Shown here one piece after another: positions 10,094 to 24,130 of a stretch of 64,000 bases of DNA. The position numbers and the translations under genes were made by a program. Under the pieces are notes generated by a model that ran no database searches, was not told the origin of the DNA, and worked only from the letters and a program-made list of their open reading frames with translations. Source of the stretch: an uncultured Bacteroidales bacterium. Its GTDB lineage: Bacteria > Bacteroidota > Bacteroidia > Bacteroidales > F082. The stretch spans positions 115,906 to 179,905 of the forward strand of contig ONKQ01000014.1 of the NCBI GenBank assembly GCA_900318465.1, in the 5' to 3' direction. Every line of letters starts with the position of its first letter. Position 1 is the stretch's first letter.

Positions 10094-10152
10094 AAACCAT
10101 ACACATAAAGCAGAATCGGGCGGAATCCCAATGGGTTTCGCCCGATTTTTTC
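10081..10152 (+). repeat. Left copy of the 71-72 bp target duplication around the insertion sequence
   Basis: This block, beginning AGGGACGTTCTGAAAACC and ending CGCCCGATTTTTTC, is repeated exactly at 11889-11960. The two copies touch the two ends of the IS1634-type element, so they are read as its target-site duplication. The left copy includes the stop region of lemA and the operon terminator. One base at the IS junction is ambiguous (C shared by repeat and IS). Confidence 0.85.
10114..10151 (+). terminator. Rho-independent terminator of the pyrB-lemA operon
   Basis: AATCGGGCG and CGCCCGATT form the core of a long stem, extended inward by GAA/TTT-type and CCC/GGG pairs, followed by TTTTTT. 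It follows the lemA stop by about 20 bases. An identical copy is present at 11922-11959 because of the IS target duplication. Confidence 0.85.
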
Positions 10153-10216
10153 CTGACTTTGACACCTACTAAAAGTTAAAATTATAACTTGTTTACAATC
10201 TGCTGGTTATAATTTT

Positions 10217-10240
10217 TGCGACCCCTGGTTTGGGGGTCGC
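10217..10240 (+). promoter_or_regulatory. Hairpin upstream of the transposase start
   Basis: GCGACCCC and GGGGTCGC pair perfectly around a short loop, 28 bases before the transposase ATG. A possible -7 box TAGTTTTG (10257-10264) overlaps the region just before the start. A hairpin here could limit translation of read-through transcripts entering from the pyr operon; that role is a guess. Confidence 0.4.
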
Positions 10241-10268
10241 AAGGCAAAAAAAGCCGTAGTTTTGCGTC

Positions 10269-11849
10269 ATGTTTGTGAAGAAGAAGCCCAATCGGTCAGG
10301 CACCACGACAGTGGTTGTAGCCGAAAAAGAGAAAGGAGCCACCAGGTATCTAAAGACGATAGGGACGAGTTCCAGTCCGATTGATATTGCCGAGTATGTT
10401 CGAGAGGCAGAACGCTATATCGAAGAGGAAAACAAGAAGATATGCCCCGAGCTGGACTTCGAAGGAGCCAGGGAGCGGGCAGCGGAGGCCGAGCTGAAGG
10501 CGACCGAGGAGTTCCTCTCGCGCATCGAGAACGTGATCCACGACGCGCCCAAGCGGATACTTGACAGGGTGTTCGACGCGGTGGGGTTCCATGCCGTTGG
10601 CGACGACATCTTCCGCAGCCTGGTGATAGCGCGCCTGTCGTTCCCGTCGAGCAAGCGGGCGACGGTGGAATACCTGAAGTCGTGCTTCGACGAGGACTAC
10701 GACCTACACAAGATATACCGCTACCTCGACAGCCTAAACGACACGAAGCGGGAGGAGATACAAGCCATCAGCGTGCGCCATACGATGGAGGTATACGGCG
10801 GGAAGATAGGGGTGCTGTTCTACGACGTGACCACGCTTTACTTCGAGACGGACAAGCCGGACAAGCTGCGCAAGCCCGGCTTCTCGAAGGACGGGAAGCA
10901 CTCCAGCCCGCAGATCGTGCTCGGGCTGCTGGTGAGCGGCGACGGATGCCCGCTGGCCTACGCCATCCACGAGGGGTCGAAGTACGAGGGGCACACGATG
11001 CTGCCCGTGGTGACGGCCTTCGTGGGGAAGTACCGTCTGGAGGACTTCGTGGTGGTGGCCGACTCGGGGATGATGAGCGAGGCCAACCTATCGGACCTGG
11101 AGGCGAGGGGCTACAAGTACATCGTCGGCGCGAGGATAAGGAACATGCCCGAGGACATCAGGGAATGGATCCTGTCGCAGGAGAAGCGTCAGGACGTCGT
11201 CAGGGAGCTGGTCCTGGACAAGGACAGGCACAAGAGGCTGCTGGTCGGCTATTCGGAGGAGCGCGCTGCCTTGGACGCGAAGAACAGGGAGAAGGGTGTG
11301 AAGAAGCTGAGGGCGAAGTACGCCACGGGTACCGTCACGAAGTCGAAGATAACGCAGCGGGGCTACAACAGGTTCCTGAAAGTGACGGGGGGAGACAAGA
11401 TAATGGTCGCGGTTGACGAGGACATGGTGGGGGCCGACGCGAAGTGGGACGGGCTGAAGGGCTACGTCAGCAACGCCACGCTGACACCCTCGGCGATTGT
11501 CGAAGCCTACCACCAGCTCTACAACGTGGAGCAGTCGTTCAGGATCTCAAAGTCCAAGCTGGAGATACGCCCGATGTTCCACTTCAACGAAGACAGGATT
11601 AAGGCCCACATCAGCATCTGCTTTGTCGCCCTGAAGGTCTATCGGGAGCTGGACAGGATGCTGAAGAACAACAAGATGAAGCTCAGTGTGGACACCGTGC
11701 TGAACATTGCCAAAACCATCCCGACCATCAGTGTGAAAATGGCCGAAAGCACCTTGACGAAGACCCTGTTCCTCACCAAACGGCAGGAGCAAATCAAGCC
11801 CTTGTTCGAGGAAAAATTCTGGGGGTCGCAAAACTCTCCTGAAAATTAG
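10269..11849 (+). CDS. IS1634-family DDE transposase
   Basis: A 526-residue transposase. The N-terminus (MFVKKKPNRSGTTTVVVAEK) is typical of IS1634 enzymes. Catalytic-domain landmarks are VLFYDVTTLYFET with the first Asp near residue 182, VVVADSGMMSEANL with the second Asp near residue 263, and VEAYHQLYNVEQSFRISK carrying the YREK-like signature with the catalytic Glu near residue 422. It cuts and pastes the element flanked by its 14-base ends. The stop codon lies close to the right subterminal repeat, so coding and end sequences overlap. GC content and codon use are higher than in the accessory genes nearby. Confidence 0.93.
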   Translation: MFVKKKPNRSGTTTVVVAEKEKGATRYLKTIGTSSSPIDIAEYVREAERYIEEENKKICPELDFEGARERAAEAELKATEEFLSRIENVIHDAPKRILDRVFDAVGFHAVGDDIFRSLVIARLSFPSSKRATVEYLKSCFDEDYDLHKIYRYLDSLNDTKREEIQAISVRHTMEVYGGKIGVLFYDVTTLYFETDKPDKLRKPGFSKDGKHSSPQIVLGLLVSGDGCPLAYAIHEGSKYEGHTMLPVVTAFVGKYRLEDFVVVADSGMMSEANLSDLEARGYKYIVGARIRNMPEDIREWILSQEKRQDVVRELVLDKDRHKRLLVGYSEERAALDAKNREKGVKKLRAKYATGTVTKSKITQRGYNRFLKVTGGDKIMVAVDEDMVGADAKWDGLKGYVSNATLTPSAIVEAYHQLYNVEQSFRISKSKLEIRPMFHFNEDRIKAHISICFVALKVYRELDRMLKNNKMKLSVDTVLNIAKTIPTISVKMAESTLTKTLFLTKRQEQIKPLFEEKFWGSQNSPEN

Positions 11850-11888
11850 TGAGTTATAAAATTCTTCTCAAAAAGTGTCAAAGTCAGG

Positions 11889-11960
11889 AGGGACGTTCTG
11901 AAAACCATACACATAAAGCAGAATCGGGCGGAATCCCAATGGGTTTCGCCCGATTTTTTC
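11889..11960 (+). repeat. Right copy of the IS target duplication
   Basis: Identical to 10081-10152 over 72 bases. It repeats the lemA tail and the pyr operon terminator (terminator copy at 11922-11959), so the IS is now walled by terminators on both sides in the plus direction. Confidence 0.85.
11922..11959 (+). terminator. Duplicated copy of the pyr operon terminator
   Basis: Same stem (AATCGGGCG / CGCCCGATT) and T tract as at 10114-10151, created by the target duplication. It would stop transcription leaving the transposase gene before it meets the converging AbiE operon. Confidence 0.75.
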
Positions 11961-12006
11961 ACATCGTTATTGATATCAATAACCCCTTGGCTGATATGCT
12001 TGACCG

Positions 12007-13017
12007 TCATTCTCTCTCCCTAAACCTCCTCTCCAACTCCTTCATGCTCACCATCAGATCCACAAAAGTCGGCTTATCACCGTAAATCATCGCGCCAGTC
12101 ATGATCTCATAGTCGTTACGCCAGTTCTCACGGCATCCTTCCGGTGGGACAAGCTGGATGCGGTCCCGCACATCAGGCGTGTAGTCAATGCCCTGCATGC
12201 TGGTCAACGTGGAACGGTGATGGCTGATAATCTCCCACAGGGCATCATCTTTGATGGCTCGCTCAGCAACGCCCCTTTGCATCATCATGTGAAGATCGTA
12301 TATGTGGCGCGAGCGTCGATGCGCCTCCACCGTGTTGCTGACCGAAAACAGCTCATGGAGCAGGAACGCCTTCTCCAAGAAAGTCTTTTCGGCCACCGCC
12401 GTCCTGACCAATGTGTCTGATATCATGGTCGAGACAGCAGGGAATGTGTTGTCAATCATGCTGCTGATTCTCCGTTCCTCCGCTGGCTCAAGCAAAGAAC
12501 GTGATCCTGCTTCAATCTTGACAACCGGCTCGATATAGCTCAGCTTATCATCGAAAACCGATTGGTACCGTACAAACAAGATTCGTGGCTCAGGATAAGT
12601 CGATTCCCCTTCACCGTCAGGTTGTGCCTCTATCGTGCAGCGGTCTTTGAGTGGAGTGTTGTTGACAGCCTCTTGCAGCTGATGGCAAAGCTCTTCTCTG
12701 ACAAAGACCGACGACGCTTTGCGTAGCTTCTTCACTCCCTTCTTCGTCAAATCGCCTTCGAGGTCGAACTGTCTTCTGTCGATGGCCAAGTCTATGTCTT
12801 CAGAAAAACGGTTAATCAGCTCCCACACTTTGCTGAGCGAGGTACCTCCTTTGAAAACCAGGTTACCAGCACAAGGCATACCGAACATGACTTGGAGCAT
12901 GGCCGTCACCCACAAGTCCTTTTCCACGGCTTGCACGGGCAACGACAAACGTATGGCCGTTTGTTCCATGATGAGCCGCTGCTCGGCAACAGCCAAGTCG
13001 AAATAGTTATTCTTCAT
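12007..13017 (-). CDS. abiEii: AbiEii/AbiGii-type nucleotidyltransferase toxin
   Basis: The toxin half of a type IV toxin-antitoxin system that gives abortive infection in lactococci. The 336-residue protein has the family nucleotidyltransferase core: FKGGTSLSKVWEL near residue 60 followed by FSEDIDLAIDRR, where the two Asp are the metal ligands. A C-terminal helical region (YDLHMMMQRGVAERAIKD) completes the fold. Work on the family shows nucleotide transfer, with tRNA 3' ends as targets in some homologues; the target here is unknown. The start overlaps the end of the antitoxin gene by 11 bases. Confidence 0.9.
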   Translation of the reverse strand: MKNNYFDLAVAEQRLIMEQTAIRLSLPVQAVEKDLWVTAMLQVMFGMPCAGNLVFKGGTSLSKVWELINRFSEDIDLAIDRRQFDLEGDLTKKGVKKLRKASSVFVREELCHQLQEAVNNTPLKDRCTIEAQPDGEGESTYPEPRILFVRYQSVFDDKLSYIEPVVKIEAGSRSLLEPAEERRISSMIDNTFPAVSTMISDTLVRTAVAEKTFLEKAFLLHELFSVSNTVEAHRRSRHIYDLHMMMQRGVAERAIKDDALWEIISHHRSTLTSMQGIDYTPDVRDRIQLVPPEGCRENWRNDYEIMTGAMIYGDKPTFVDLMVSMKELERRFRERE

Positions 13018-13621
13018 AGAGCGATTTGATGATTGACGACACCCAAGCGGGCATCAGTTTGTAATCCTGTTTCACGCCCTGACTCTTGTCTTTCGCCAGC
13101 AGGTCTTTGGTATGGGCAAGGATCTCATCGGTGACGTTGTCCTTTCCCAGACTTTTGAAGGCGAAAGTGAGCAACATGGCCAGCTGCGAGTTGAAGGCCA
13201 GATTTTTGGGTGCAGTGTGCTTAAACTCGATGGTGGCCCCGTTGTATAGCATAAGCTTACGATTGGAGCCATCCGTCAAGTATTGTATGTTCATGGGTAT
13301 TTGTGTGGAAAAGCCCAGCCTGTTGAGCGCATAAAGGCCAGTCGGCACGATACGCGCCTTGTCACGCTTGGCAACACCTTCGGCGATGGCCTCCAACGTG
13401 GGGTACAGCACACCCAAACCCAGTTTCTTGTCGATTTTGGGATAATAGTAGATGCCTCGGCTGATGCGCAGGATTGTTCCTTCTTTAGCCATCCTCTCCA
13501 AGACTTTATTCACCGTTTTCTGCTCTCCAAAACGCACAAAATCCGAAGAGAAAACCAGTTTACCCCTTCCGCATTTTTTAATACATTCAAGTATCTTACT
13601 CTCAATATGTTGACCACTCAT
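13007..13621 (-). CDS. abiEi: AbiEi-type antitoxin (DUF6088 group)
   Basis: The upstream partner of abiEii. I chose the start MSGQHIESKILECIKKCG at 13621, because the longer frame (to 13651) would begin inside the promoter. Residues about 1-80 form a winged helix (ERMAKEGTILRISRGIYYYP) that binds DNA; the C-terminal domain (GLYALNRLGFSTQIPMNIQY, then NGATIEFKHTAPKNL) is the AbiEi antitoxin region. In the family the antitoxin neutralises the toxin without lasting contact and represses its own promoter. A matching palindrome lies over the promoter at 13633-13667. Confidence 0.87.
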   Translation of the reverse strand: MSGQHIESKILECIKKCGRGKLVFSSDFVRFGEQKTVNKVLERMAKEGTILRISRGIYYYPKIDKKLGLGVLYPTLEAIAEGVAKRDKARIVPTGLYALNRLGFSTQIPMNIQYLTDGSNRKLMLYNGATIEFKHTAPKNLAFNSQLAMLLTFAFKSLGKDNVTDEILAHTKDLLAKDKSQGVKQDYKLMPAWVSSIIKSLYEE

Positions 13622-13632
13622 TACACATACAA

Positions 13633-13667
13633 TTTTGTCGCAAAAATACACAATTTTTACGACAAAA
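13633..13667 (-). promoter_or_regulatory. Long palindromic operator over the abiE promoter
   Basis: Two 15-base arms, TTTTGTCGcAAAAAT and ATTTTTaCGACAAAA, pair with a single mismatch around a 5-base centre. The minus-strand -7 box TATTTTTG (13641-13648 on the plus strand as CAAAAATA) lies inside it, about 20 bases before the antitoxin start. AbiEi antitoxins are known to bind inverted repeats in their own promoters; the same control is inferred here. Confidence 0.7.
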
Positions 13668-13757
13668 TATCAAAATCGGAACTTTTTTGGTAGCATGGAA
13701 TTCATACCCAACCCCTTTTGCATATCATTGCACCTAATCCCCACCTATGCCAACCAT

Positions 13758-13896
13758 TTACTTCTTAATCCTATACTTCCTGTTTTTATACTCACCCTCC
13801 ACCTCAAGGATGCCTTCGCCCACGAGTTGTTTGAGGTAGTCGCGGGTTCTTGAGGGTTTGAGTCCGATGGCTTTCGAAATGGTTTTTGAATCTGAA
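13758..13896 (-). pseudogene. 3' end of a split winged-helix gene
   Basis: Reading on the minus strand, the frame gives DSKTISKAIGLKPSRTRDYL, then KQLVGEGILEVEGEYKNRKY and the end RIKK, a winged-helix C-terminus like those that finish AlbA/Schlafen-type ATP-binding proteins. Its missing upstream part is found 1.6 kb away at 15470-15603, which ends in the same 30 bases. The gene was therefore split by the ATPase cassette at 13897-15469. No start codon of its own is convincing. Confidence 0.6.
13867..13896 (+). repeat. Left copy of a 30 bp direct repeat bracketing the ATPase cassette
   Basis: The 30 bases starting ATGGCTTTCGAAATGG and ending TTTGAATCTGAA recur exactly at 15470-15499. They code for SDSKTISKA on the minus strand in both places. 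Between them lie 1,573 bases with the AAA ATPase gene. Confidence 0.85.
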
Positions 13897-13997
13897 TGCA
13901 TCTGGCTATAGGCATTTTTATCTTCTGGCGTAGCCACAGACAATCCGCACCTTCGTCAACTGGCATTGGAAACCTCTACAACAAGGTAACTAATCTT

Positions 13998-15215
13998 TCA
14001 AACACCCGATAGGCACAACAAACACTCCGTCTTCACGGCGGTAGGCATACATTCCCACGCCCACCACGCAAGATTTATCAATGATGCTGCACCTTCATTG
14101 ATGAGGTCGTCGCCACCCAGCTTTATCTCAACCAGGCCGTAACGGCCATCCCTCAAATGCACAACTGCGTCACATTCCAGCCCGTTCTTGTCCCTGAAGT
14201 GATACACCTTGCCATTAAGAGCCTCGGCATAGGCTCGGAGGTCTCGCACGGCCAACGTCTCAAACATCAAACCAAAGGTGTTCAAATCATTCACCAAATC
14301 ACGTGGGCCTATGCCCAATGCAGCCGTGGCAATCGAGGGGTCGGTATAATACCGCGTGTCGCTCGTCCGTATCGCCGTCTTGCTCCTCAAATTCGGATTC
14401 CATGCCTCGCTGTCCTCAACCACAAAAATCTCTTTCAATGCTTTGATGTACGATGCGATGGTGTCTTCCGACAAAGCGTCCGACTCATTCGCAATCAAGT
14501 CTGCCCTGATGGTGCCGCATGATGCTTGGCTACCTTGGTTTCGCGCCAGTGAGCGCAACAGGCGGTGTACCCTAACAGGGTCGCGATCCACACCGTCCAC
14601 CTTCGAGATATCACGTTTCTCAACCGCCTCCACGTAGTCAAACGCCTGGTCTAAAGCTATCTCGTTTTCCATATCCACCGCCAATGGCCATCCTCCGCGG
14701 CAGGTCAAGAATGCAAGCTGTTCAATGGACATGTCGTTGACAGCTCCAATCTGTTCGGGCGTCTCGAACAATTCAGCCAGCGACACCTCGCCAGTCGATT
14801 CTTGCGACTCCCAAAGGCTCATGGGGCGCATCCTCAGCCACCCAATGCGTCCTGTTCCCGAATGAACCACCTTACTCATGTCGGCAGGAACGGCTGAGCC
14901 AGTCAGAATAAACTGACCCAGCGGGCCATGGTCTGATTCAAAACGAATGCTGTCCCACAACTGAGGGGCAATTTGCCATTCATCGATAAGCCGGGGAAAC
15001 TCACCTTTCAACAGCAGCTTCGGGTTCAGCGATGCCATTTTGATGTTCTGGTCAACCATACCAGTTTCCGTCATATACTTCACACTCTTGGCAATCTGCT
15101 CCGCCGTAGTAGTCTTTCCACACCATTTGGCACCCTCGATAAGCACAGCCCCTTTGCCTGCCAACTTACGCTCTAACAGCCTGTCAGCTATCCTTTTTTT
15201 ATAGGTCTTATCCAT
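13998..15215 (-). CDS. AAA ATPase with DUF4143 C-terminal domain
   Basis: A 405-residue ATP-binding protein of the AAA_14/DUF4143 type. Walker A is GAKWCGKT at residues 28-35; the Walker B-like strand is RLIDEWQ near residue 75-80; FILTGSAVPA near 103 is the sensor region. The C-terminal half ends with GLECDAVVHL and YGLVEIKLGG, a PD-(D/E)XK-like nuclease pattern found in DUF4143. Function in the family is unproven; they are common, mobile and often single genes. This one lies between 30-base direct repeats inside an older gene and has 23-base tandem repeats upstream of its promoter. A -7 box TATCTTTG (minus strand, 15240-15247) precedes the start. Confidence 0.88.
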   Translation of the reverse strand: MDKTYKKRIADRLLERKLAGKGAVLIEGAKWCGKTTTAEQIAKSVKYMTETGMVDQNIKMASLNPKLLLKGEFPRLIDEWQIAPQLWDSIRFESDHGPLGQFILTGSAVPADMSKVVHSGTGRIGWLRMRPMSLWESQESTGEVSLAELFETPEQIGAVNDMSIEQLAFLTCRGGWPLAVDMENEIALDQAFDYVEAVEKRDISKVDGVDRDPVRVHRLLRSLARNQGSQASCGTIRADLIANESDALSEDTIASYIKALKEIFVVEDSEAWNPNLRSKTAIRTSDTRYYTDPSIATAALGIGPRDLVNDLNTFGLMFETLAVRDLRAYAEALNGKVYHFRDKNGLECDAVVHLRDGRYGLVEIKLGGDDLINEGAASLINLAWWAWECMPTAVKTECLLCLSGV

Positions 15216-15239
15216 ATTTTTTGTTTGAATTGCGTTGCA

Positions 15240-15247
15240 AAGATATG
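15240..15247 (-). promoter_or_regulatory. -7 element of the DUF4143 ATPase promoter
   Basis: TATCTTTG on the minus strand, 25 bases before the ATG. The position where a -33 box should lie falls at the first unit of the tandem array starting at 15263, so the repeats could occupy the promoter. Confidence 0.5.
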
Positions 15248-15262
15248 GATTTTCTTTTTGCG

Positions 15263-15377
15263 TTCACCCATTTGACCAAAATTCATTCACCCATTTGGCC
15301 AAAAATCATTCACCAATTTGGCTAAAAATCATTCACCCATTTGGCTAAAAATCATCCACCCGTTTGGCCCAATACCT
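15263..15377 (+). repeat. Five tandem 23 bp units upstream of the DUF4143 ATPase
   Basis: The unit begins TTCACCCATTTGGC and ends AAAAATCA, with copies at 15263-15285, 15286-15308, 15309-15331, 15332-15354 and a diverged one at 15355-15377. Units differ at one to four positions, without intervening spacers, so this is not a CRISPR array. The 23-base period is close to two helical turns. A regulator-binding iteron array is the simplest reading. Confidence 0.75.
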
Positions 15378-15469
15378 TTCGCCCAAAGAGGTCGCACCTT
15401 AACCCGATTCAAGTTTTGCAAGCCCATTTTTTTTGCCCCTTGTGGCGTTGAAGATGGCAATAAGCTACA

Positions 15470-15499
15470 ATGGCTTTCGAAATGGTTTTTGAATCTGAA
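15470..15499 (+). repeat. Right copy of the 30 bp direct repeat
   Basis: Identical to 13867-13896. It marks the right end of the inserted ATPase cassette. Confidence 0.85.
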
Positions 15500-15603
15500 A
15501 TCCCGTTATCGGCGATAAAATCGATGATTTGTCGCCGATTTTCTTCATTTCGATTTCGATTTTCTGTTTTTATTGTCATTTTATCGGATTCCTCTTCGTT
15601 CAT
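15470..15603 (-). pseudogene. Middle part of the split winged-helix gene
   Basis: On the minus strand the frame runs MNEEESDKMTIKTENRN, RNEENRRQIIDFIADNG and ISDSKTISKAI before going out of homology. It joins logically to the fragment 13758-13896 at the shared 30 bases. Together they would make a continuous winged-helix C-terminus. No further upstream part of the gene is recognisable before the next promoter. Confidence 0.5.
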
Positions 15604-15822
15604 TGAGGCTATCAGTTCGAAGGCCGCCCGAAGAACTATTCCGTAGCGAAAGACATCATGTGGAATTCGCCCTACGTGAAATTTATGAACACAAAAGTAC
15701 AAATGTCTGCTAACAATCACCCCAAGCAACTACTGACCGCACGACACTCATACATTTTTTGTACGGGAATCTTTATCTCCTACTATTCTATTTTTATTCC
15801 TATTTTTATCGACAAATTTCTT

Positions 15823-15830
15823 TATCTTTG
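15823..15830 (+). promoter_or_regulatory. -7 element of the restriction/SIR2-HerA operon
   Basis: TATCTTTG, 25 bases before the start at 15856, fits the TAnnTTTG consensus. The -33 position is T-rich without a clear TTG. It is the only good promoter candidate seen for the four-gene run to 23863. Confidence 0.55.
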
Positions 15831-15855
15831 CACTTTCAGAGTATAAGCATCACAG

Positions 15856-16902
15856 ATGCCCCAAATTGCCACCGACATATTAGAAAACGACATCCTTCGG
15901 CGTTGGCCAGAGGTGCTTAGAGCATTGCTCAAAGACCATACAACCAACCGTAATATATTCTGGGCTACAGATATGTATGAGAAGAAGTATGGCGAGTCGT
16001 ATTCTTTTCATCATCCCATTACGGTCGATCAAATTACTGGAGTCAATGGCAATGTCATTCGTCCAAGGTCAGTTAAATCGGAGGAGGAACAGCGTTTTCG
16101 CATTCGCGACAAAGCGGAGGTGTTTACGCCTTCATGGATTTGCAACGCCCAAAACAACCTTGTTGATGACGCTTGGTTTGGGAGAAAAAACGTTTTCAAC
16201 ACACTCAACGTGCAAACACATGAATGGATTCCGACAGAAGGAAAGATAGGGTTTCCAGAATCCAAGTCATGGCAAGAGTATGTTTGTAGCAACTGCCTTG
16301 AAATTACCTGTGGTGAAGCCCCGTATCTTGTAAGTCGATATGACACCACTACTGGCATCCCCATCAAGGAACTCAAAATGCGTGTTGGAAGGCTCGACCG
16401 CAAACTTCGTGTCGTCGGTGAGAATGTCAAAACCATGAGAGATTGGTATTATTGGGCCTTCAATGCCATCAAATCCACCTACGGTTACGAGTGGCAAGGC
16501 GACAGTCTTTTGCTTGCACGAGAGGCCATACTCTACACCTTCATAGATTATTATAAAGAATTTGCCATCCAACACAAGATTAAAACTATCGTTCCGTTCC
16601 GTTCCTATTTGTATCATGCGGCAAAGATTATCTCTTGGAATCTATTTCAAATGGACGGCCTTAAGATGGTATTGCCCATGACGTGTTATGACACACACAT
16701 TAAAGCCATACATCAAACCAATCTGTTTGAGAAGGTGAACACCAAAGACAAAATCATTCCATGCCCTGGCTGCAAAAAAAACAATGTCCATTTGCACAAC
16801 GGCATTAAGGTTCTTGTGGCCGATTGGGATAAAACACAATGGAGCATGACAGAAAAGCCTATAGAGATTGTTGAATTCCATACACTTGTTAAAACGCCAT
16901 GA
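15856..16902 (+). CDS. Methylase-like restriction subunit M
   Basis: A 348-residue protein of the group usually labelled restriction endonuclease subunit M. Residues 86-100 (DKAEVFTPSWICNAQNN) hold the FTP signature seen at the start of adenine-N6 methylase folds, and WQGDSLLLAREAILYTFIDYY is a conserved later helix. In place of the catalytic (N/D)PPY motif the nearest match is GEAPY at 153-157, so its own catalysis is doubtful. A late CPGCKKNN pair could bind zinc. It overlaps the giant helicase-methyltransferase gene by four bases (ATGA), so the two proteins probably form one complex. What it adds to that complex is unknown. Confidence 0.75.
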   Translation: MPQIATDILENDILRRWPEVLRALLKDHTTNRNIFWATDMYEKKYGESYSFHHPITVDQITGVNGNVIRPRSVKSEEEQRFRIRDKAEVFTPSWICNAQNNLVDDAWFGRKNVFNTLNVQTHEWIPTEGKIGFPESKSWQEYVCSNCLEITCGEAPYLVSRYDTTTGIPIKELKMRVGRLDRKLRVVGENVKTMRDWYYWAFNAIKSTYGYEWQGDSLLLAREAILYTFIDYYKEFAIQHKIKTIVPFRSYLYHAAKIISWNLFQMDGLKMVLPMTCYDTHIKAIHQTNLFEKVNTKDKIIPCPGCKKNNVHLHNGIKVLVADWDKTQWSMTEKPIEIVEFHTLVKTP

Positions 16903-19900
16903 CAGCATTCAACACAGATATACTTGACAACCTGATTGTCGGACGCATAGAGCCTCACATCTATGCTTTCACAACCAACACTGTCCCCAATTATCTCAAA
17001 GTGGGCGACACTTATCGACCTGTCAATGTCCGTTTGGACGAATGGAGAGATTATTTCCCAAATCTCGAGCATGAAAGTGATTGGGAATGGTTGGCCAAGA
17101 CTGAAAGCGGCAAGTATTTCCGCGATTTCGCCATCCATTATTATTTGGAAGTCTTCAAGCGTTACCACCGCCTACAACCCACCGACTTTGATAGTCTTCC
17201 GTATTATTCACGTGAGTTTTTTGAAAATGCCACACCGAAAGACATTGATGAGGCAATCAAGGACATTGAACAATACGCCATCCAAGCCGATGGTTCTCGA
17301 CAATATCAGTTCTATTCCGAAGAACGCTTGCCCGAGGAAACACATTTTGCCCGAGTTGATAATTATGATCCACGTCCCAATCAGGAAAATACCATCCAGC
17401 GTTTTGTCGCTGCTCTAAAAAGAAGGCGTAAGAATCTTCTGATGTATGCCGTGATGCGTTTCGGTAAATCGTTCACATCCATGTGCTGTGCTACTGAAAT
17501 GGACGCCAAGGTCGTGCTGGTAGTTTCAGCGAAGGCCGATGTGAAAAACGAATGGAAGAAAACGGTTGAAAGCCATGTCCGTTTTGCTGACTATTGTTTC
17601 CTTTGTAGCGACAATCTTAGAGAGGACAAAGCAATTTCCAAGAAACTCGAAGAAGGAAAACGAGTTGTCGTTTTCCTGACCCTGCAAGATTTAATGGGTG
17701 ATGACATCAAAAAGAAACACAAGGATTTGTTTCGCCAAAGAATTGATTTGCTGATAGTAGATGAAACTCATTTTGGCGCACGGGCTGAAGAATACGGGAA
17801 AGTGTTGCGCAATGTAAACAACCTTAAACCTGAACAGATTAGCAAAGAGCAAGAAAAATCGGGAGAAAGCACTTTCGACGACTTGGAAAAAGGTCTTGAA
17901 AGAATTAAAGCTCTAAAAGTTGACACTACTTTGCATCTTTCAGGTACTCCATATCGGATCCTTATGGGCAGTGAGTTCAAGAAAGAAGACATTGTAGCGT
18001 TCTATCAGTTTACCGACATCATTGACGATAAAGAGAAATGGGACAGAGAACATCCAGAGGATAACGAATGGAACAATCCATACTATGGTTTTCCGCAGAT
18101 GATTCGTTTCGCTTTCAACCCTAGCGAATCGGCGCGAAGACTGATAGAGCAACTCAAAAATGATGGCAAAACTACACAACTTAATGAGTTGTTCCGCCCA
18201 CAGTCCATTTCCAAAGATACTACATCCGAAAAGAAACACCGCTTGTTTGTGCACGAAAAAGAAGTGCTTGACCTTTTGCGGGTCATTGATGGTAGTGCTG
18301 AAGACGAGAATCTGTTGGGCTTCCTTGATTACGACAAACTCAAAGAAGGCAAGATCTGCCGCCATATCGTCATGGTTTTGCCTTTCTGTGCGTCGTGTGA
18401 TGCGATGGAAAAACTGATTGGCGACCACAAAGATGAGTTCAAGAATCTGGATGAATATACTTTGGTCAATATCGCAGGCCACGAAAGCAATTTTGACACC
18501 ACAGAGGAAATCAAACATCACATCAAGCAACTGGAAAGCGAAGGCAAGAAAACCATTACGCTTACCGTCAACCGAATGCTTACTGGCAGCACGGTGCGTG
18601 AATGGGACACTATGATATTCTTGAAAGATGTGTCGTCGCCTCAGGAATATGACCAAGCCATTTTCCGCCTTCAGAACCAATATGTCACCACATACAAAGA
18701 TGAAAGCGGGAATACAATCAAGTACAACATGAAGCCGCAAACATTGCTCGTTGACTTCGACCCCAACCGCATGTTTTTCATGCAGGAGCAAAAATCGAAG
18801 ATTTACAATGTCAACACCAATGAGCGCGGCAATGATGAATTGGAAACACGTCTCAAACGCGAGCTTGAAATTTCACCCATTATCGTCATCAATAAAGGCA
18901 AAATTGCCCAGGTTACGCCCACCAACATCATGGATGCTGTGCGTGACTATTCCGCCAACCGCACCGTGATGGATGAAGCGACAGCAGTTCCCACTGATTT
19001 CAAGTTGCTTGAAGACCCCAACATGTTGGACATCATCAAAAGCCTTGACCCCATTGACAACAAAAAAGGCATCAACATCAAGCCAAATGAAGGTCCCGGT
19101 AATGACTACGACAACTCGGATGACGACGATGAAAAGGGTGCATCAGGTGGTGACAAGCCAGCGAAAGGCTCCTCCAAGAATGATGAAGACAATGACGACC
19201 GGCTTGACAAACGTCTGGCCACTTTCTTTGCGCAAATTCTTTTCTACGCCTTGCTTACTGACGATAGTGTAAAATCGTTGAATGAAGTAATTCAATCCTC
19301 TAAACGTAACAAGAACAACAAGCGTATCATGCGCAATGTTGGATTGGAAACCGACCAACTCAAATACTTGCAGAAACACATCAATCCATTTGTGTTGAGC
19401 GATTTGGACTACAAAATCAACAACATTAATGACTTATTGAGCGACACGACCCACGAACCACTTGTAAGAGTAGAACGTGCACTAAAAAAGTTTGGTCGTC
19501 TATCGACATCTGAAATCGTAACGCCTGCTAAAGTGGCCGAAGACATGGTTGCTTTATTGCCAAAAGAAAACATAAATAAAAAGACGCGTTTTCTCGATAT
19601 TGCATCCAAGCAGGGTGAATTTGCTTGTGCCCTGTATAAACGCTTCGGGCCAGCCATCAAAGAAAACATTTATGCTTTGCCAACATCATCACTCACATAC
19701 GAGTTCACCAATAAAGTTTTCAAATTGCTTGACATACCAGCCAAGAATATCATTGCTGATTTCAACACATACGATCTCATTGGTGAAGACAAAGAAACTC
19801 ACATCCAAACACTAAAGAAAATGAAATTCAATGTAATATTAGGGAATCCTCCATATCAAGATAACAGATCATCTGAAAATAGCACGAACACAAATGCTGC

Positions 19901-20870
19901 ATTTGCTTCTGCAATTTATCCATCCCTCATTGATGTAACAGTTGAGATCAAGCCTAAATATATTTCCTTAATTACTCCAAGTAGATGGATGACAAAAACA
20001 GGTCAAGGTATTTCGGACGAGTGGGTTGATGGCTACATTAATGGCAACCACTTTATTACCGTCTGTGATTTCACGGATGCATCAAATTGTTTTGACAATA
20101 GTAGTATTGAAATCAAAGGAGGAGTAAATTATTTTCTGTATAGCGATTATTATACTGGAAAATGTCATTACACTCTCAATACAAACGGGGTAATCTCTAC
20201 TAGAGAGGAAGAACTCAATGCTAACGGTCTTGGAATTGTTATTAGAGACATTAGAGCTACTTCAATATTCAAAAAAATAATCGACGTTGAAGGAATGTAT
20301 ATGAATGAAACTAATTTCTCGGAATTGGTCAGCCCTCAACACTTTTTTGATAAAGATGGTTTACTTGGCTCTAGATGGAATGGTTTCGCAGTTGAAAAAG
20401 ATGATAGACATCAGATAAAATATTATTGCAACAAGAAGCTTAGCGCATTAGGTTATGGTTGGATACACGAGGATGACATACCAAAAAACAAGGCCTCACT
20501 ACCGTTGCACAAAATTTTTATTCCCGAAGCAGGAGGTTCTGGAACAGATTCAATGGTTCTAGGTAGACCATTCTATGGAGAGCCTGGCAGTATTTGCTCT
20601 CAAACATATTTATGCATTGGGTATGATGCAGAAAATCATCATTTTACCAAGTCTGAATGTGAAAATATCATAAGTTATATAAAAACAAGGTTTTTCCGTT
20701 ATTTAGTTTCTGTCAAAAAGCGAACTCAGCACACCTCATCATCAGTTTATCAATTTGTGCCACTCCAAGATTTCAGGAAGCCTTGGACAGATGCAGAGTT
20801 ATATGCAAAATACAATCTTTCAGATGAAGAGGTGGCGTTTATTGAGTCAAAGATTAATCCGATGGAATGA
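16899..20870 (+). CDS. Helicase and Eco57I-type adenine methyltransferase fusion (restriction enzyme)
   Basis: A 1,323-residue multidomain restriction protein. Residues 1-90 resemble a GIY-YIG nuclease (HIYAF, then YLKVGD, then VNVRLDEWR). An SF2 helicase follows: FGKS near 188-191, VDETHFGAR near 287, LSGTPYR near 349, and RMLTGSTVREWDT as motif V. An acidic linker (DYDNSDDDDEKG) leads to an N6-adenine methylase with FTP-like EIVTPAKVAEDM, motif I FLDIASKQGEF and motif IV ILGNPPYQDN (983-986). The rest is a target recognition domain. Such proteins both modify and cut DNA at one site. The last third is plainly more AT-rich than the first, as if its recognition end was exchanged. Confidence 0.85.
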   Translation: MTAFNTDILDNLIVGRIEPHIYAFTTNTVPNYLKVGDTYRPVNVRLDEWRDYFPNLEHESDWEWLAKTESGKYFRDFAIHYYLEVFKRYHRLQPTDFDSLPYYSREFFENATPKDIDEAIKDIEQYAIQADGSRQYQFYSEERLPEETHFARVDNYDPRPNQENTIQRFVAALKRRRKNLLMYAVMRFGKSFTSMCCATEMDAKVVLVVSAKADVKNEWKKTVESHVRFADYCFLCSDNLREDKAISKKLEEGKRVVVFLTLQDLMGDDIKKKHKDLFRQRIDLLIVDETHFGARAEEYGKVLRNVNNLKPEQISKEQEKSGESTFDDLEKGLERIKALKVDTTLHLSGTPYRILMGSEFKKEDIVAFYQFTDIIDDKEKWDREHPEDNEWNNPYYGFPQMIRFAFNPSESARRLIEQLKNDGKTTQLNELFRPQSISKDTTSEKKHRLFVHEKEVLDLLRVIDGSAEDENLLGFLDYDKLKEGKICRHIVMVLPFCASCDAMEKLIGDHKDEFKNLDEYTLVNIAGHESNFDTTEEIKHHIKQLESEGKKTITLTVNRMLTGSTVREWDTMIFLKDVSSPQEYDQAIFRLQNQYVTTYKDESGNTIKYNMKPQTLLVDFDPNRMFFMQEQKSKIYNVNTNERGNDELETRLKRELEISPIIVINKGKIAQVTPTNIMDAVRDYSANRTVMDEATAVPTDFKLLEDPNMLDIIKSLDPIDNKKGINIKPNEGPGNDYDNSDDDDEKGASGGDKPAKGSSKNDEDNDDRLDKRLATFFAQILFYALLTDDSVKSLNEVIQSSKRNKNNKRIMRNVGLETDQLKYLQKHINPFVLSDLDYKINNINDLLSDTTHEPLVRVERALKKFGRLSTSEIVTPAKVAEDMVALLPKENINKKTRFLDIASKQGEFACALYKRFGPAIKENIYALPTSSLTYEFTNKVFKLLDIPAKNIIADFNTYDLIGEDKETHIQTLKKMKFNVILGNPPYQDNRSSENSTNTNAAFASAIYPSLIDVTVEIKPKYISLITPSRWMTKTGQGISDEWVDGYINGNHFITVCDFTDASNCFDNSSIEIKGGVNYFLYSDYYTGKCHYTLNTNGVISTREEELNANGLGIVIRDIRATSIFKKIIDVEGMYMNETNFSELVSPQHFFDKDGLLGSRWNGFAVEKDDRHQIKYYCNKKLSALGYGWIHEDDIPKNKASLPLHKIFIPEAGGSGTDSMVLGRPFYGEPGSICSQTYLCIGYDAENHHFTKSECENIISYIKTRFFRYLVSVKKRTQHTSSSVYQFVPLQDFRKPWTDAELYAKYNLSDEEVAFIESKINPME

Positions 20871-20910
20871 AATGAGTCTTGTTTAATCAATATTACTTAG
20901 TAACTTTTAT

Positions 20911-22155
20911 ATGGAAAAGATTTTTTTATATAAGACTACGACAAAGTCAATCGCATACGATGATGATTTCTGGTACATCAATGACAAACCACAACAAAAA
21001 AATGACGGTGAAGGAACATCAGAAATCAAATCAAAGGCAATGGAAGAAGCCTATCGGCAAGCTTCGTTAGATATTATCCGTTATTCTAGTCATTTTAAAA
21101 ATGTAGCTGTGTTAACAGCAGCAGGGACTTCCATGGAAAACGGGGATTATGGAGGAAAAACAAGAACAGAGTTATGGAATAGTTACAAAACAGAAATTGA
21201 TGCAATATCAAACATATTAACAAAAAACGATGGCTTCTTAAAAGAAAAATGTCTTTCCATTATTGCAGATGAGAATATTGAAGACTTTCTTTCTTTTACT
21301 ATTCTATACGAAAAACTGAATGGAGAATTAAAGGATGAGAATGGAGATTCTTTAAAGGAAAAGCTTGAGAAAAAGATTGCAGATGCATGTCGATTGCCTT
21401 TGGACGTTAATAACAAGCATCATCAAGAGTTTATACGAAAACTAACTGCACGCAAACCTGATTCACCTCGTATACAACTATATACAACAAATTATGATAC
21501 GCTATTTGAGCAAGCAGCGCAAAGGCTAAATTATACCATAATAGATGGGTTTTCATTTTCGTATCCCAGGGTATTCAACGGTGTAAATTTTGATTACGAT
21601 ATTGTTTTTAGAGAGAGAACTCGAGTAACGCAAGAAGAAAGCTTTATTCCAAATGTAATTCAACTATTCAAACTTCACGGAAGCATTGATTGGGAAAACA
21701 ATGATGGAAAAATCTATCAGAAAGAGTATACTGATCATCCTTGCATTATTTATCCTGCAAATGAGAAATATGAAAGTAGTTATGAACAACCGTATTTTGA
21801 AATGATGGCACATTTACAAAGTACACTTAGAAAAGAAGGTACTTTGTTGATTGTTGTTGGTTTTGGTTTTCAAGATAAACATATTCAAAATGTTATCAAA
21901 GAAGCTGCTCTTCAAAATCAAAACTTTCATTTGTTTATTGTATGCTATGGAAAAAAGGAAATTGAAAAAAATGCAAATAAAGTAATTGTGGATAGTGGAA
22001 TCACTCATAAATTAGTCCCCGAGTATGTTTCTGAAAATGGGTCAGTAATGCCTAATGTGACAGTGTTGTTTTCAAAGTTTAAAGCATTTGCGGAACATTA
22101 TCCTAACAACAACTCTTATGATACTGAAAATTTAAGTAATAATGAAACCGTTTAA
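20911..22155 (+). CDS. SIR2 family NADase-type effector
   Basis: A 414-residue SIR2-fold protein. Its NAD-binding landmarks are VLTAAGTSMENGD near residues 67-78, YTTNYDTLFEQAA near 192 and LFKLHGSIDWEN near 252; VVGFGFQDKHI sits near residue 315. In bacterial defence such proteins degrade NAD+ once infection is sensed and stop growth. The next gene, a HerA-type ATPase, overlaps by 14 bases, the arrangement of the two-gene SIR2-HerA (Nezha) system, where the two assemble into a large complex. The 40-base gap to the preceding helicase gene has no terminator, so it may share that operon. Low GC content distinguishes this and the next gene. Confidence 0.88.
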   Translation: MEKIFLYKTTTKSIAYDDDFWYINDKPQQKNDGEGTSEIKSKAMEEAYRQASLDIIRYSSHFKNVAVLTAAGTSMENGDYGGKTRTELWNSYKTEIDAISNILTKNDGFLKEKCLSIIADENIEDFLSFTILYEKLNGELKDENGDSLKEKLEKKIADACRLPLDVNNKHHQEFIRKLTARKPDSPRIQLYTTNYDTLFEQAAQRLNYTIIDGFSFSYPRVFNGVNFDYDIVFRERTRVTQEESFIPNVIQLFKLHGSIDWENNDGKIYQKEYTDHPCIIYPANEKYESSYEQPYFEMMAHLQSTLRKEGTLLIVVGFGFQDKHIQNVIKEAALQNQNFHLFIVCYGKKEIEKNANKVIVDSGITHKLVPEYVSENGSVMPNVTVLFSKFKAFAEHYPNNNSYDTENLSNNETV

Positions 22156-23863
22156 TCATAATAGATTTATTGGATATATATGTGAAGTAACTCCACAATA
22201 TGTTCGAATGCAGATTCCTTCAGCAAAACTAATCCATACTTTTTATCTTAATGGGGAGATTTTTCTTGGTGGATCCGTAGGTAGTTTCGTGGTTATAGAA
22301 GGTGTTGAATTTGGCTTTCTTGGTAGGGTTTTTGAACTGAATCTACCGCAAGGTGAGCGTTTAGAAATAACTGATAAAAACATAAATGAAGAAGAATCCC
22401 AATTTCACCCTATAGCAAAAGTCGAATTATTAGCACTATTCGATATTTATCATCCTGAAACTATTGTTAAAACAGTTTCCCGTTATCCTACCGTTGGGGC
22501 GAAAGTGTATTCCTGTTCTGACGAACAGATGGGATTATATATATCAAATTTTGGTGTTAAAGAAGAAGATAAGAATGTGCCGTTTGCCCCATTAGGCAGG
22601 TTGACATCAAATAATGCATCTTGTAACATTTCATTAAACTCTTTATTCGGTCGTCATTGTGCTGTATTGGGGACAACAGGAGGAGGAAAGAGTTGGACAG
22701 TAGCAAAACTTCTTGAATTGGTGGCAACAACTACAACAAATAAATGTATCCTTGTTGATGCGACTGGCGAATACAATTCAATAAGCAATGATATGGATAG
22801 TATTCAAATTGGAACTGGCGAGTATGTTTTCGACTATAAAAATCTTTCCATTGATGAATTGTATTATTTATTACATCCTTCATCAAAAACTCAAGTTCCG
22901 AAGTTAATGGATGCCATCAGATCGCTAAAAATGATAATGATTGATGAGCAAGAAGAACTTAAACAGTACTATGTTCAAGATGCAAATGGAACATACCTAA
23001 AAGAAAACTTGTATAAAGCAGGGAAACGAAAGAGAGACTTCCATGTTTTCTATTATAAACATGTCATGGAAATAGAAGATAAGTTTTGTAGATTTGATTT
23101 TATGCATCTTGCTCAACAGATTACAAATGAGTGCAATTGGGATACGGACAAGGCTGACGCTTCTTCATGGGGGCAAAGAAATGATACGGATGTTTCAAAT
23201 TGTATAAGTCTTATTTCTCGAATAAACAATGTCATGTCTACATCCGAATATAATAAAATATTTGGCTTTAGAACAGAAACTATACCAGGTGCAAAAGACA
23301 TAAAAAAAGGAATACAGGACTTCTTAAATAGCGAGAAAAGCATTTTGCGATTGGATTTTTCACAAGTGAGTTTTGACTACCAAGTTAGAGAAATATTGGT
23401 TAATGCTATAGGGAATTTTTTGTTATCAGAATCTAGGGAAGGTAAATACAAAGAACATCCTACTATCGTGTTTATTGATGAAGCACACCAATTCCTAAAC
23501 AAAAGTATTTCAGATGAATATTTCTCTGCAAAACCATTGGATGCCTTTGAACAAATTTCAAAAGAAGGCCGAAAATATGGTTTATTTTTATGTATTGCGA
23601 CACAAATGCCTCGTGATATTCCATTAGGAACATTAAGTCAAATGGGTACTTTTATCGTTCATAGATTAATAAACGACCAAGATAAAAAAGCAGTGGAGAA
23701 TGCTGCGTCTGCAGCGAATAGAAATAGTTTAGCATTTTTACCAATACTAGGAGAAGGAGAAGCTCTTTTAGTAGGTGTTGATTTTCCAATGCCCTTGACA
23801 GTAAAAATCGATGTGCCTCACAATAAACCAGATTCTAAAACACCAAAACTAAACAAACGATAA
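22142..23863 (+). CDS. herA: HerA-like DUF87 ATPase partner of SIR2
   Basis: A 573-residue hexameric translocase-type ATPase. An N-terminal HAS-barrel-like region (YVRMQIPSAKLIHTFYLNGE) precedes Walker A GTTGGGKSWTVAKL near 176-184, Walker B TIVFIDEAHQFL near 440, and the sensor LFLCIATQMPRDIP with QMGTFIVHRL near 500. In SIR2-HerA systems it forms the ring on which SIR2 is mounted and is needed for defence; it may also act with DNA ends. It overlaps the SIR2 gene by 14 bases. A hairpin with T tract after a truncated RhuM remnant (24091-24114) is the likely operon end. Confidence 0.88.
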   Translation: MKPFNHNRFIGYICEVTPQYVRMQIPSAKLIHTFYLNGEIFLGGSVGSFVVIEGVEFGFLGRVFELNLPQGERLEITDKNINEEESQFHPIAKVELLALFDIYHPETIVKTVSRYPTVGAKVYSCSDEQMGLYISNFGVKEEDKNVPFAPLGRLTSNNASCNISLNSLFGRHCAVLGTTGGGKSWTVAKLLELVATTTTNKCILVDATGEYNSISNDMDSIQIGTGEYVFDYKNLSIDELYYLLHPSSKTQVPKLMDAIRSLKMIMIDEQEELKQYYVQDANGTYLKENLYKAGKRKRDFHVFYYKHVMEIEDKFCRFDFMHLAQQITNECNWDTDKADASSWGQRNDTDVSNCISLISRINNVMSTSEYNKIFGFRTETIPGAKDIKKGIQDFLNSEKSILRLDFSQVSFDYQVREILVNAIGNFLLSESREGKYKEHPTIVFIDEAHQFLNKSISDEYFSAKPLDAFEQISKEGRKYGLFLCIATQMPRDIPLGTLSQMGTFIVHRLINDQDKKAVENAASAANRNSLAFLPILGEGEALLVGVDFPMPLTVKIDVPHNKPDSKTPKLNKR

Positions 23864-23901
23864 TGTTTTGATTGAATTAGAATAATCAAAACTTGTTATT
23901 T

Positions 23902-24114
23902 ATGAAATCCCAAACAACAGAAAACAATAACCTCGAAATCATCAAAAAGCAAGATTTCCTGATCTATCAGGACGACAATGGTGTTAGCCAAGTGAATGTC
24001 AGATTTGAAGGAGATGATGTTTGGCTCACCGCCGAACAATTGACCGAATTGTTTGATGCGTCGCAGCAAAACATTAAGTTCAAACCCACCCCGATATGCA
24101 ATGTCGGGTTTTGA
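23902..24114 (+). pseudogene. Truncated RhuM-family gene remnant
   Basis: The 70-codon frame starts MKSQTTENNNLEIIKKQDFL and contains VRFEGDDVWLTAEQLTELFD, the start of the virulence RhuM family, whose members are over 300 residues. Here homology stops at ASQQNI and the frame ends 12 codons later within a terminator hairpin. It is therefore a 5' fragment left after a deletion. RhuM genes are frequent passengers of restriction loci. Confidence 0.75.
24091..24114 (+). terminator. Hairpin terminator after the SIR2-HerA operon
   Basis: CCGATAT and ATGTCGG pair (one G-U) around GCA, extended by AAAC/GTTT, followed by GTTTTGA. It lies where the RhuM remnant ends and just before the converging hydrolase gene, so it may serve both strands. 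The T tract is short. Confidence 0.5.
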
Positions 24115-24130
24115 TAATTGATAATCAATC

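Follow-up and report, generated by a model that had tools for sequence, protein, structure and literature searches.

The window, a 64,000-nucleotide (nt) stretch of contig ONKQ01000014.1 from an uncultured Bacteroidales bacterium, carries four closely packed defence genes on one strand: a methylase-like gene (M), a gene for a helicase-methylase (HelMT), and genes for a SIR2 protein and a HerA ATPase (Table 1). Their comparison across genomes indicates that this arrangement is probably a mobile, autonomous SIR2-HerA cassette lodged in a replaceable slot downstream of an M and HelMT restriction core, with two layers of defence under one promoter. An initial annotation of this DNA had proposed a two-stage system that cuts first and kills on failure. 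The pairing behind that proposal is real and recurrent, but a dedicated four-part machine is not supported; the coupling of immunity to suicide, including suicide once immunity fails, was already put forward by Makarova in 2012, according to the available part of that text (PMC3506569).

Table 1. Features of the four-gene locus and its surroundings in the window
Feature	Positions	Strand	Remarks
Gene 1, M	15856..16902	+	348 amino acids (aa); methylase-like partner; conserved LEITCGEAP stretch; without NPPY
Gene 2, HelMT	16899..20870	+	putative T5orf172 N-terminus, superfamily 2 (SF2) helicase, Eco57I N6-adenine methylase
Gene 3, SIR2	20911..22155	+	N194 in TTNYD, H256 in KLHGS
Gene 4, HerA ATPase	22142..23863	+	Walker A GTTGGGKS at 177, Walker B in FIDEAH at 444
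Bacteroidota-type -7 element TATCTTTG	15823..15830	+	possible operon promoter; exact TANNTTTG match
AT-rich 40-nt junction of genes 2 and 3	20871..20910	+	without terminator-like site or perfect Bacteroidota -7 element
RhuM gene start, truncated remnant	23902..24088	+	51% identity over 39 aa to the RhuM-family protein after M-HelMT in locus L082
Terminator-like hairpin with T run	24090..24108	+	after the operon
Island of about 14 kb	10094..24130	.	transposase, AbiE pair, DUF4143 ATPase, the four genes, RhuM remnant; flanked by lemA and by the esterase gene beside rpoC

Profile searches identify genes 3 and 4 as a SIR2-HerA (Nezha) pair with its key residues intact. Pfam recovers SIR2_2 in gene 3 and DUF87 (E-value 9.6e-21) together with HerA_C in gene 4, the PADLOC models score 234 bits for SIR2 and 594 bits for HerA, and gene 4 resembles solved HerA chains. 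The SIR2 active-site residues N194 and H256 align with the solved SIR2 chains 8yhx (KIHGS), 8j4u and 8w9l, and both Walker motifs of the ATPase are intact; in the Vibrio cholerae SIR2, N168 and H227 are reported to be needed (PMC11559045, partial text). The pair thus shares with Nezha (GAO_19) the gene order, the SIR2/HerA overlap, the asparagine and histidine found in the three solved SIR2 proteins and the HerA Walker motifs. It differs in lying directly behind a restriction pair and in falling far under the NCBIfam equivalog cut-offs (109 against 500 bits for SIR2_antiphage, 181 against 800 for HerA_antiphage), so that the two proteins are not equivalogs of those modelled there. Nezha is known as a 12:6 assembly that depletes nicotinamide adenine dinucleotide (NAD+) on infection; a short review covers SIR2-HerA biochemistry (PMC12198126). 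The window HerA is 78% identical to the HerA of genome G105, of the same order, and to that of Parabacteroides acidifaciens (L020). Among viral contigs, the HerA search gave three pattern matches and no relative, and the search with M gave no match.

Genes 1 and 2, judged from motifs and family matches, are a conserved restriction pair resembling the combination of REase_MTase_IIG and MTase_II in PADLOC. Gene 2 matches the Eco57I methylase and ResIII helicase models of Pfam, unites in one chain the NPPY methylase motif (983-986) with SF2 helicase motifs (RFGKS at 187, DETH at 288), as in type IIG-like enzymes, and scores 1136 bits against REase_MTase_IIG, the best stretch being residues 6-967. 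The restriction part probably includes a nuclease in its putative T5orf172 N-terminus, T5orf172 being a domain of the GIY-YIG superfamily: Pfam matches it at the HelMT N-terminus of 12 of 14 family members (E-values up to 1; best 5.6e-7), the window's copy not among them. A fold model of this N-terminal region was not usable (mean predicted local distance difference test score, pLDDT, 46), and complete gene 2 had no match among PDB sequences at an E-value of 0.01. The Type_ISP_C specificity domain of type ISP enzymes (the LlaBIII/LlaGI kind) was not found in gene 2 at an E-value of 0.1, though the same model matches L030.

M has no Pfam match at an E-value of 0.1 and matches the PADLOC MTase_II model with an E-value of 8e-109 (362 bits). 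Its designation as "subunit M" in the initial annotation is a label: the catalytic motif IV, [NSD]PP[YFW], occurs in no M-family protein listed, and NPPY sits in gene 2. M is probably a non-catalytic, methylase-like partner. Conservation within the family is high, with a mean column identity of 61% over 14 sequences, and M has relatives in the order and the phylum as well as on Bifidobacterium, Enterococcus and lactobacillus plasmids. A profile search of PDB sequences gave a single match at the level of noise (E-value 0.46); with a structure model of mean pLDDT 60, the best Foldseek matches were BREX methylases (E-values 0.7-0.9), and the fold matches, which include BrxX and LlaGI methylases (best E-value 0.73), are not significant.

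The positions, strand and spacing of the four genes as first read are borne out by the open reading frame list and the family calls, with all four frames on the plus strand, a 4-nt overlap of genes 1 and 2, a 40-nt spacing of genes 2 and 3 and a 14-nt overlap of genes 3 and 4. Upstream, TATCTTTG begins 33 nt before the gene 1 ATG and exactly matches TANNTTTG, which we take to be the Bacteroidota -7 consensus; the best -33 match is poor (2/4). No terminator was visible to the initial annotation, and the terminator scan likewise found no such site on the plus strand within 19617-24090. Perfect TANNTTTG elements are absent from the plus strand within 20300-20915, and one-mismatch elements occur in that interval at 20750 (with a weak -33) and 20901, the latter so close to the ATG that transcription would begin at or behind it. 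A sigma-70-like promoter scan performed at chance level (28 matches against 27.1 expected). On these signals the four genes are likely to form a single operon with one transcript.

To place the locus in a wider context, we searched a named genome collection with HerA, obtaining 61 loci (loci are given L numbers throughout); among the 66 loci examined, 62 held a recognised pair, and these formed 44 clusters at 85% HerA identity by single linkage. Neighbours were labelled with profiles built for this work, whose seeds were partly Pfam-checked and partly BLAST cluster mates of checked ones, and a cluster was scored positive if at least one member had a restriction gene as the direct same-strand neighbour of the pair, no more than 300 nt away. 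The adjacency of SIR2-HerA to restriction genes on one strand, on which the initial annotation had built, recurs by this measure: 20 of 44 clusters are positive, or 19 of 43 without the window, the other 24 having no labelled restriction-modification (RM) gene directly adjoining. The flanking systems are of several unrelated types: type I (L021, L031, L036, L043, L045, L054, L057 and a lineage of nine near copies, with HsdR-like genes in L114 and L115), type III (L032, L034, L103, in which SIR2-HerA is broken, and L028, a piece whose Pfam match lies below the cut-off), type IIG (L037), ISP-like (L030), the HelMT family (L027, L041) and a 1657-aa helicase with a methylase motif (L111). Downstream of the pair, the nine near copies carry TraI- and TraD-like genes, so this lineage is probably an integrative element. 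Outside the count, BrxL adjoins SIR2-HerA in L023 and GmrSD in L044, and L035 has a IIG gene farther upstream, past the distance limit. On two roseobacter plasmids (L117:6376-11257 and L116:331-3627) a gene annotated as the antiviral reverse transcriptase Drt5 directly follows HerA, and SIR2 in L117 is closely preceded by a gene annotated HsdR N-terminal. SIR2-HerA is in pieces in L038, in L060 (behind hsd genes) and in L103 (behind a type III res-mod pair), which is cassette decay in place.

SIR2-HerA changes its restriction partners even between close relatives. One 85% HerA cluster includes neighbours as different as a type III methylase piece (L028), a GmrSD gene (L044) and none (L029), and the window's nearest HerA relative, L020, adjoins RloB and an AAA protein instead. 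Base composition also sets the cassette apart: its G+C content is 0.29-0.40 in the seven loci compared, AT-rich in all seven, against 0.31-0.53 in the adjoining core genes. In the window SIR2 and HerA have 0.33 and 0.34 against 0.41-0.43 in the core, with a step from 0.41 (HelMT) to 0.33 (SIR2), and in L021 the G+C content at third codon positions is 0.24 in HerA beside 0.71 in HsdR. The variety of flanking restriction types, the exchange of partners within one cluster and at L020, and this AT-richness, together with the turnover behind HelMT (see below), are the grounds for reading SIR2-HerA as a mobile cassette. Its autonomy is suggested by published work: according to the available texts, cloned Streptococcus thermophilus SIR2/HerA pairs protect (PMC11514479), and the SIR2-herA island of Vibrio cholerae, which also has a type II RM system, keeps resistance with the rest of the island deleted (PMC11559045).

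The diversity of partners bears on a guard model after PrrC, in which the restriction complex keeps SIR2-HerA silent until it is released by an anti-restriction protein of a phage or because restriction has failed. The studied precedent is PrrC with its type Ic enzyme, and a guard of this sort entails a physical and regulatory link of the effector to the RM enzyme; the placement of SIR2-HerA between hsdS and hsdR in L021, L043 and L054 would suit such a guard, and a 2012 paper pointed out Sir2 domains in type I and type III RM systems (PMC3506569, in the part available). More broadly, toxin-like or abortive genes likewise lie in or behind restriction genes in PrrC with PrrI, in DarTG2 inside a type I system of enteropathogenic Escherichia coli and in the PDC candidates of PADLOC, and both guilt-by-embedding and the DarTG2 case have been published (PMC12988326, PMC12255303, as far as these texts are available); here the cassette is SIR2-HerA and the core of the M-HelMT kind. 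However, a conserved contact surface is not to be expected with type I, IIG, ISP-like, III and helicase-methylase partners, or none at all, and the Vibrio cholerae pair acts without the rest of its island. We regard a guard as unlikely.

That defence islands simply gather genes, and that a shared operon means joint expression only, also seems an improbable account. An AbiE pair and a DUF4143 ATPase adjoin the operon, and the site is hotspot-like, with other genes in three of six congener loci, one of them holding a type III RM, DndD-like and DndH-like set. Control systems in restriction operons speak both ways: KwaB of Kiwa is so placed in 4 of 10 loci, about as often as SIR2-HerA, but HamA of Hachiman in 1 of 11. 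Compared with the 28 SIR2-HerA clusters on genome contigs (15 positive), the Fisher p is 0.71 for KwaB and 0.014 for HamA, on small samples, with any positive member making a cluster positive, control counts read by eye and KwaA taken as part of Kiwa. The profiles were seeded from SIR2-HerA loci, so RM genes beside the controls may have escaped labelling; several control neighbours without a label are large or have an NPPY-like motif. The single strand, the near-zero gaps and the hsdS/hsdR placement nonetheless exceed loose clustering. The association of SIR2-HerA with restriction genes is real but not special to SIR2-HerA, and the showing of Kiwa, another two-gene defence, argues against a dedicated system.

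How often the whole four-gene order recurs is a separate question. In the order's 295 genomes M is found in 15 (E-value 1e-10) and this HerA in 3 (1e-30), both only in the window's genome; in 395 genomes of the phylum each is found in 7 (1e-30 for M, 1e-60 for HerA), and besides the window's genome G317 alone has both, on separate contigs with other neighbours. The initial annotation had allowed that the link would be chance if the pairing occurred only here, and this is not so: Myroides indicus L027 has M, HelMT, SIR2 and HerA in the same order with a 41-nt junction, the sole exact recurrence. L041 has SIR2-HerA and, downstream of it after 280 nt, a weakly M-like 216-aa gene (E-value 8e-8) and a split helicase/methylase pair of the HelMT family. 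Among the 18 other tight M-HelMT pairs none has SIR2-HerA, and none of three trees places the window and L027 as sisters. By HerA, the window's partner is L020 (support 97/79) and L027 lies inside another well supported group; by HelMT, L027 is joined to L123 (98/96), a locus without SIR2-HerA; and by M, the window is joined, with moderate support (91/90), to L081, and L027 groups with L123 and L124. The strongly supported HelMT and M branches force two label changes, so the simplest reading is assembly at least twice, and the trees favour independent assembly in the window and in L027. A dedicated, co-inherited four-gene system is disfavoured by these non-sister positions and by the 18 pairs without SIR2-HerA. 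An old single origin with later losses would cost about one step more on the HelMT tree, but many losses on the HerA tree.

The slot behind HelMT was surveyed in 20 tight M-HelMT pairs, namely those of the window and of L027 and 18 more; L087-L089 are near copies. A same-strand gene begins within 60 nt of the HelMT end in 13 and in 7 there is none, so that while SIR2-HerA follows in the window and L027 (2 of 13), other genes or none follow elsewhere. Eight loci hold one kind each, mostly defence candidates: PRTase-CE, RhuM (PDC-S05), DUF3800 (PDC-M04A), DUF3644 (PDC-S19), a PDC-S42-like protein, GmrSD_N, a nucleotidyltransferase and a SprT-like protein, the last followed by a DUF7380 (PDC-S39-like) protein. 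In L087 the slot has a transposase piece. In L122 and L123 it has a related small gene without assigned family: about 100 aa long and overlapping the HelMT end by 1 nt (L122:9805-10110, L123:8385-8687; 55% identical over 98 aa), it may encode an additional subunit of the restriction enzyme. The RhuM remnant behind the window's HerA, which Pfam did not call in the short 23902-24088 piece, fits turnover in the slot; like the eight other kinds, it counts toward the cassette reading. A stronger proposal is that the core has a fixed slot for interchangeable suicide modules gated by a common core signal (translocated or cut DNA, or loss of M-HelMT), the window and Myroides being two independent fillings of one regulated slot; we consider this quite unlikely.

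Layered autonomous defences under one promoter are the most likely reading. HelMT would methylate host sites and, on unmethylated DNA, would translocate and cut with its GIY-YIG-like domain; M would assist, perhaps by helping to recognise the target or by serving as a methylase-like partner without catalytic activity. SIR2 and HerA would assemble together, answer infection through a trigger of their own and hydrolyse NAD+, whereupon the cell would stop. With one promoter driving both layers, a phage escaping restriction would meet abortive infection, and the benefit would lie in additive layering and joint inheritance, with no contact between the halves required. Direct coupling between the restriction and SIR2-HerA halves is a possibility; one version of it, in which HerA is loaded by DNA ends or single strands that HelMT generates and then activates SIR2, with killing after failed or excessive cutting, could draw on the DNA translocation typical of the ATPase family to which HerA belongs, on the helicase and probable nuclease domain of HelMT and on the cut or translocated DNA that varied partners would all expose, but is very unlikely given the 24 of 43 clusters without a labelled RM gene directly beside SIR2-HerA.

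Several observations weigh against an autonomous cassette. The same order in two distant loci, with gaps of 40 and 41 nt, together with L041, may reflect a specific preference; the published autonomy concerns other SIR2-HerA pairs, and the window pair is far under the NCBIfam cut-offs; co-transcription is read from sequence signals; and there is no composition step in Myroides L027 or in L034, where the entire locus is AT-rich, while HsdS is also AT-rich in L021 and L043.

A close published parallel is the island of Streptococcus thermophilus CR3, where SIR2-HerA likewise lies between or downstream of restriction/modification systems; it differs in its island arrangement and in that defence was demonstrated for the cloned pair, and the M-HelMT family is not among the systems named in the available part of that text (PMC11514479). 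Our literature survey found no account of M-HelMT followed by SIR2-HerA, or of its replaceable slot, which is weak evidence of absence, as no search was aimed at that family by name and subscription journals and preprints were mostly outside its scope. Bacterial immune genes are usually studied system by system. Here, a well-known abortive module behaves as a cassette, swapping restriction partners over short distances yet staying AT-rich, and a single place in a restriction core can be filled by many different genes. This raises the testable question of whether suicide genes carried by restriction operons are gated by them or only expressed from them, for which the window and Myroides loci, sharing one gene order in two distant lineages, are good models.

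The operon belongs to an island that is absent from two congeners: the lemA and esterase protein matches are 62-65 nt apart in L162 and L164 and 14 kb apart in the window, so the island entered here as a block or in steps. On the other strand beside the operon lie an AbiEi/AbiEii pair and the DUF4143 ATPase (PADLOC candidate PDC-S01), at 12007-13651 and 13998-15215. Of the six congener loci fetched, L160, L161 and L163 carry other genes next to the esterase, the neighbours in L160 and L161 resembling by eye those in L163; one gene scanned in each of the former two was GmrSD_N in L161 and CHAT, BovA-like, in L160. L161 stops before rpoC, and L165 has the esterase match only, without rpoC or lemA. 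The lemA-esterase gap thus looks like a defence hotspot in this genus. The five genes scanned in L163 (4366-13860) lie on one strand and encode a type III methylase, a ResIII helicase, a DndD-like ATPase, a DUF87/DndH-like ATPase and a topoisomerase C-terminal-repeat protein, a set that looks like a mixed type III/Dnd-like defence.

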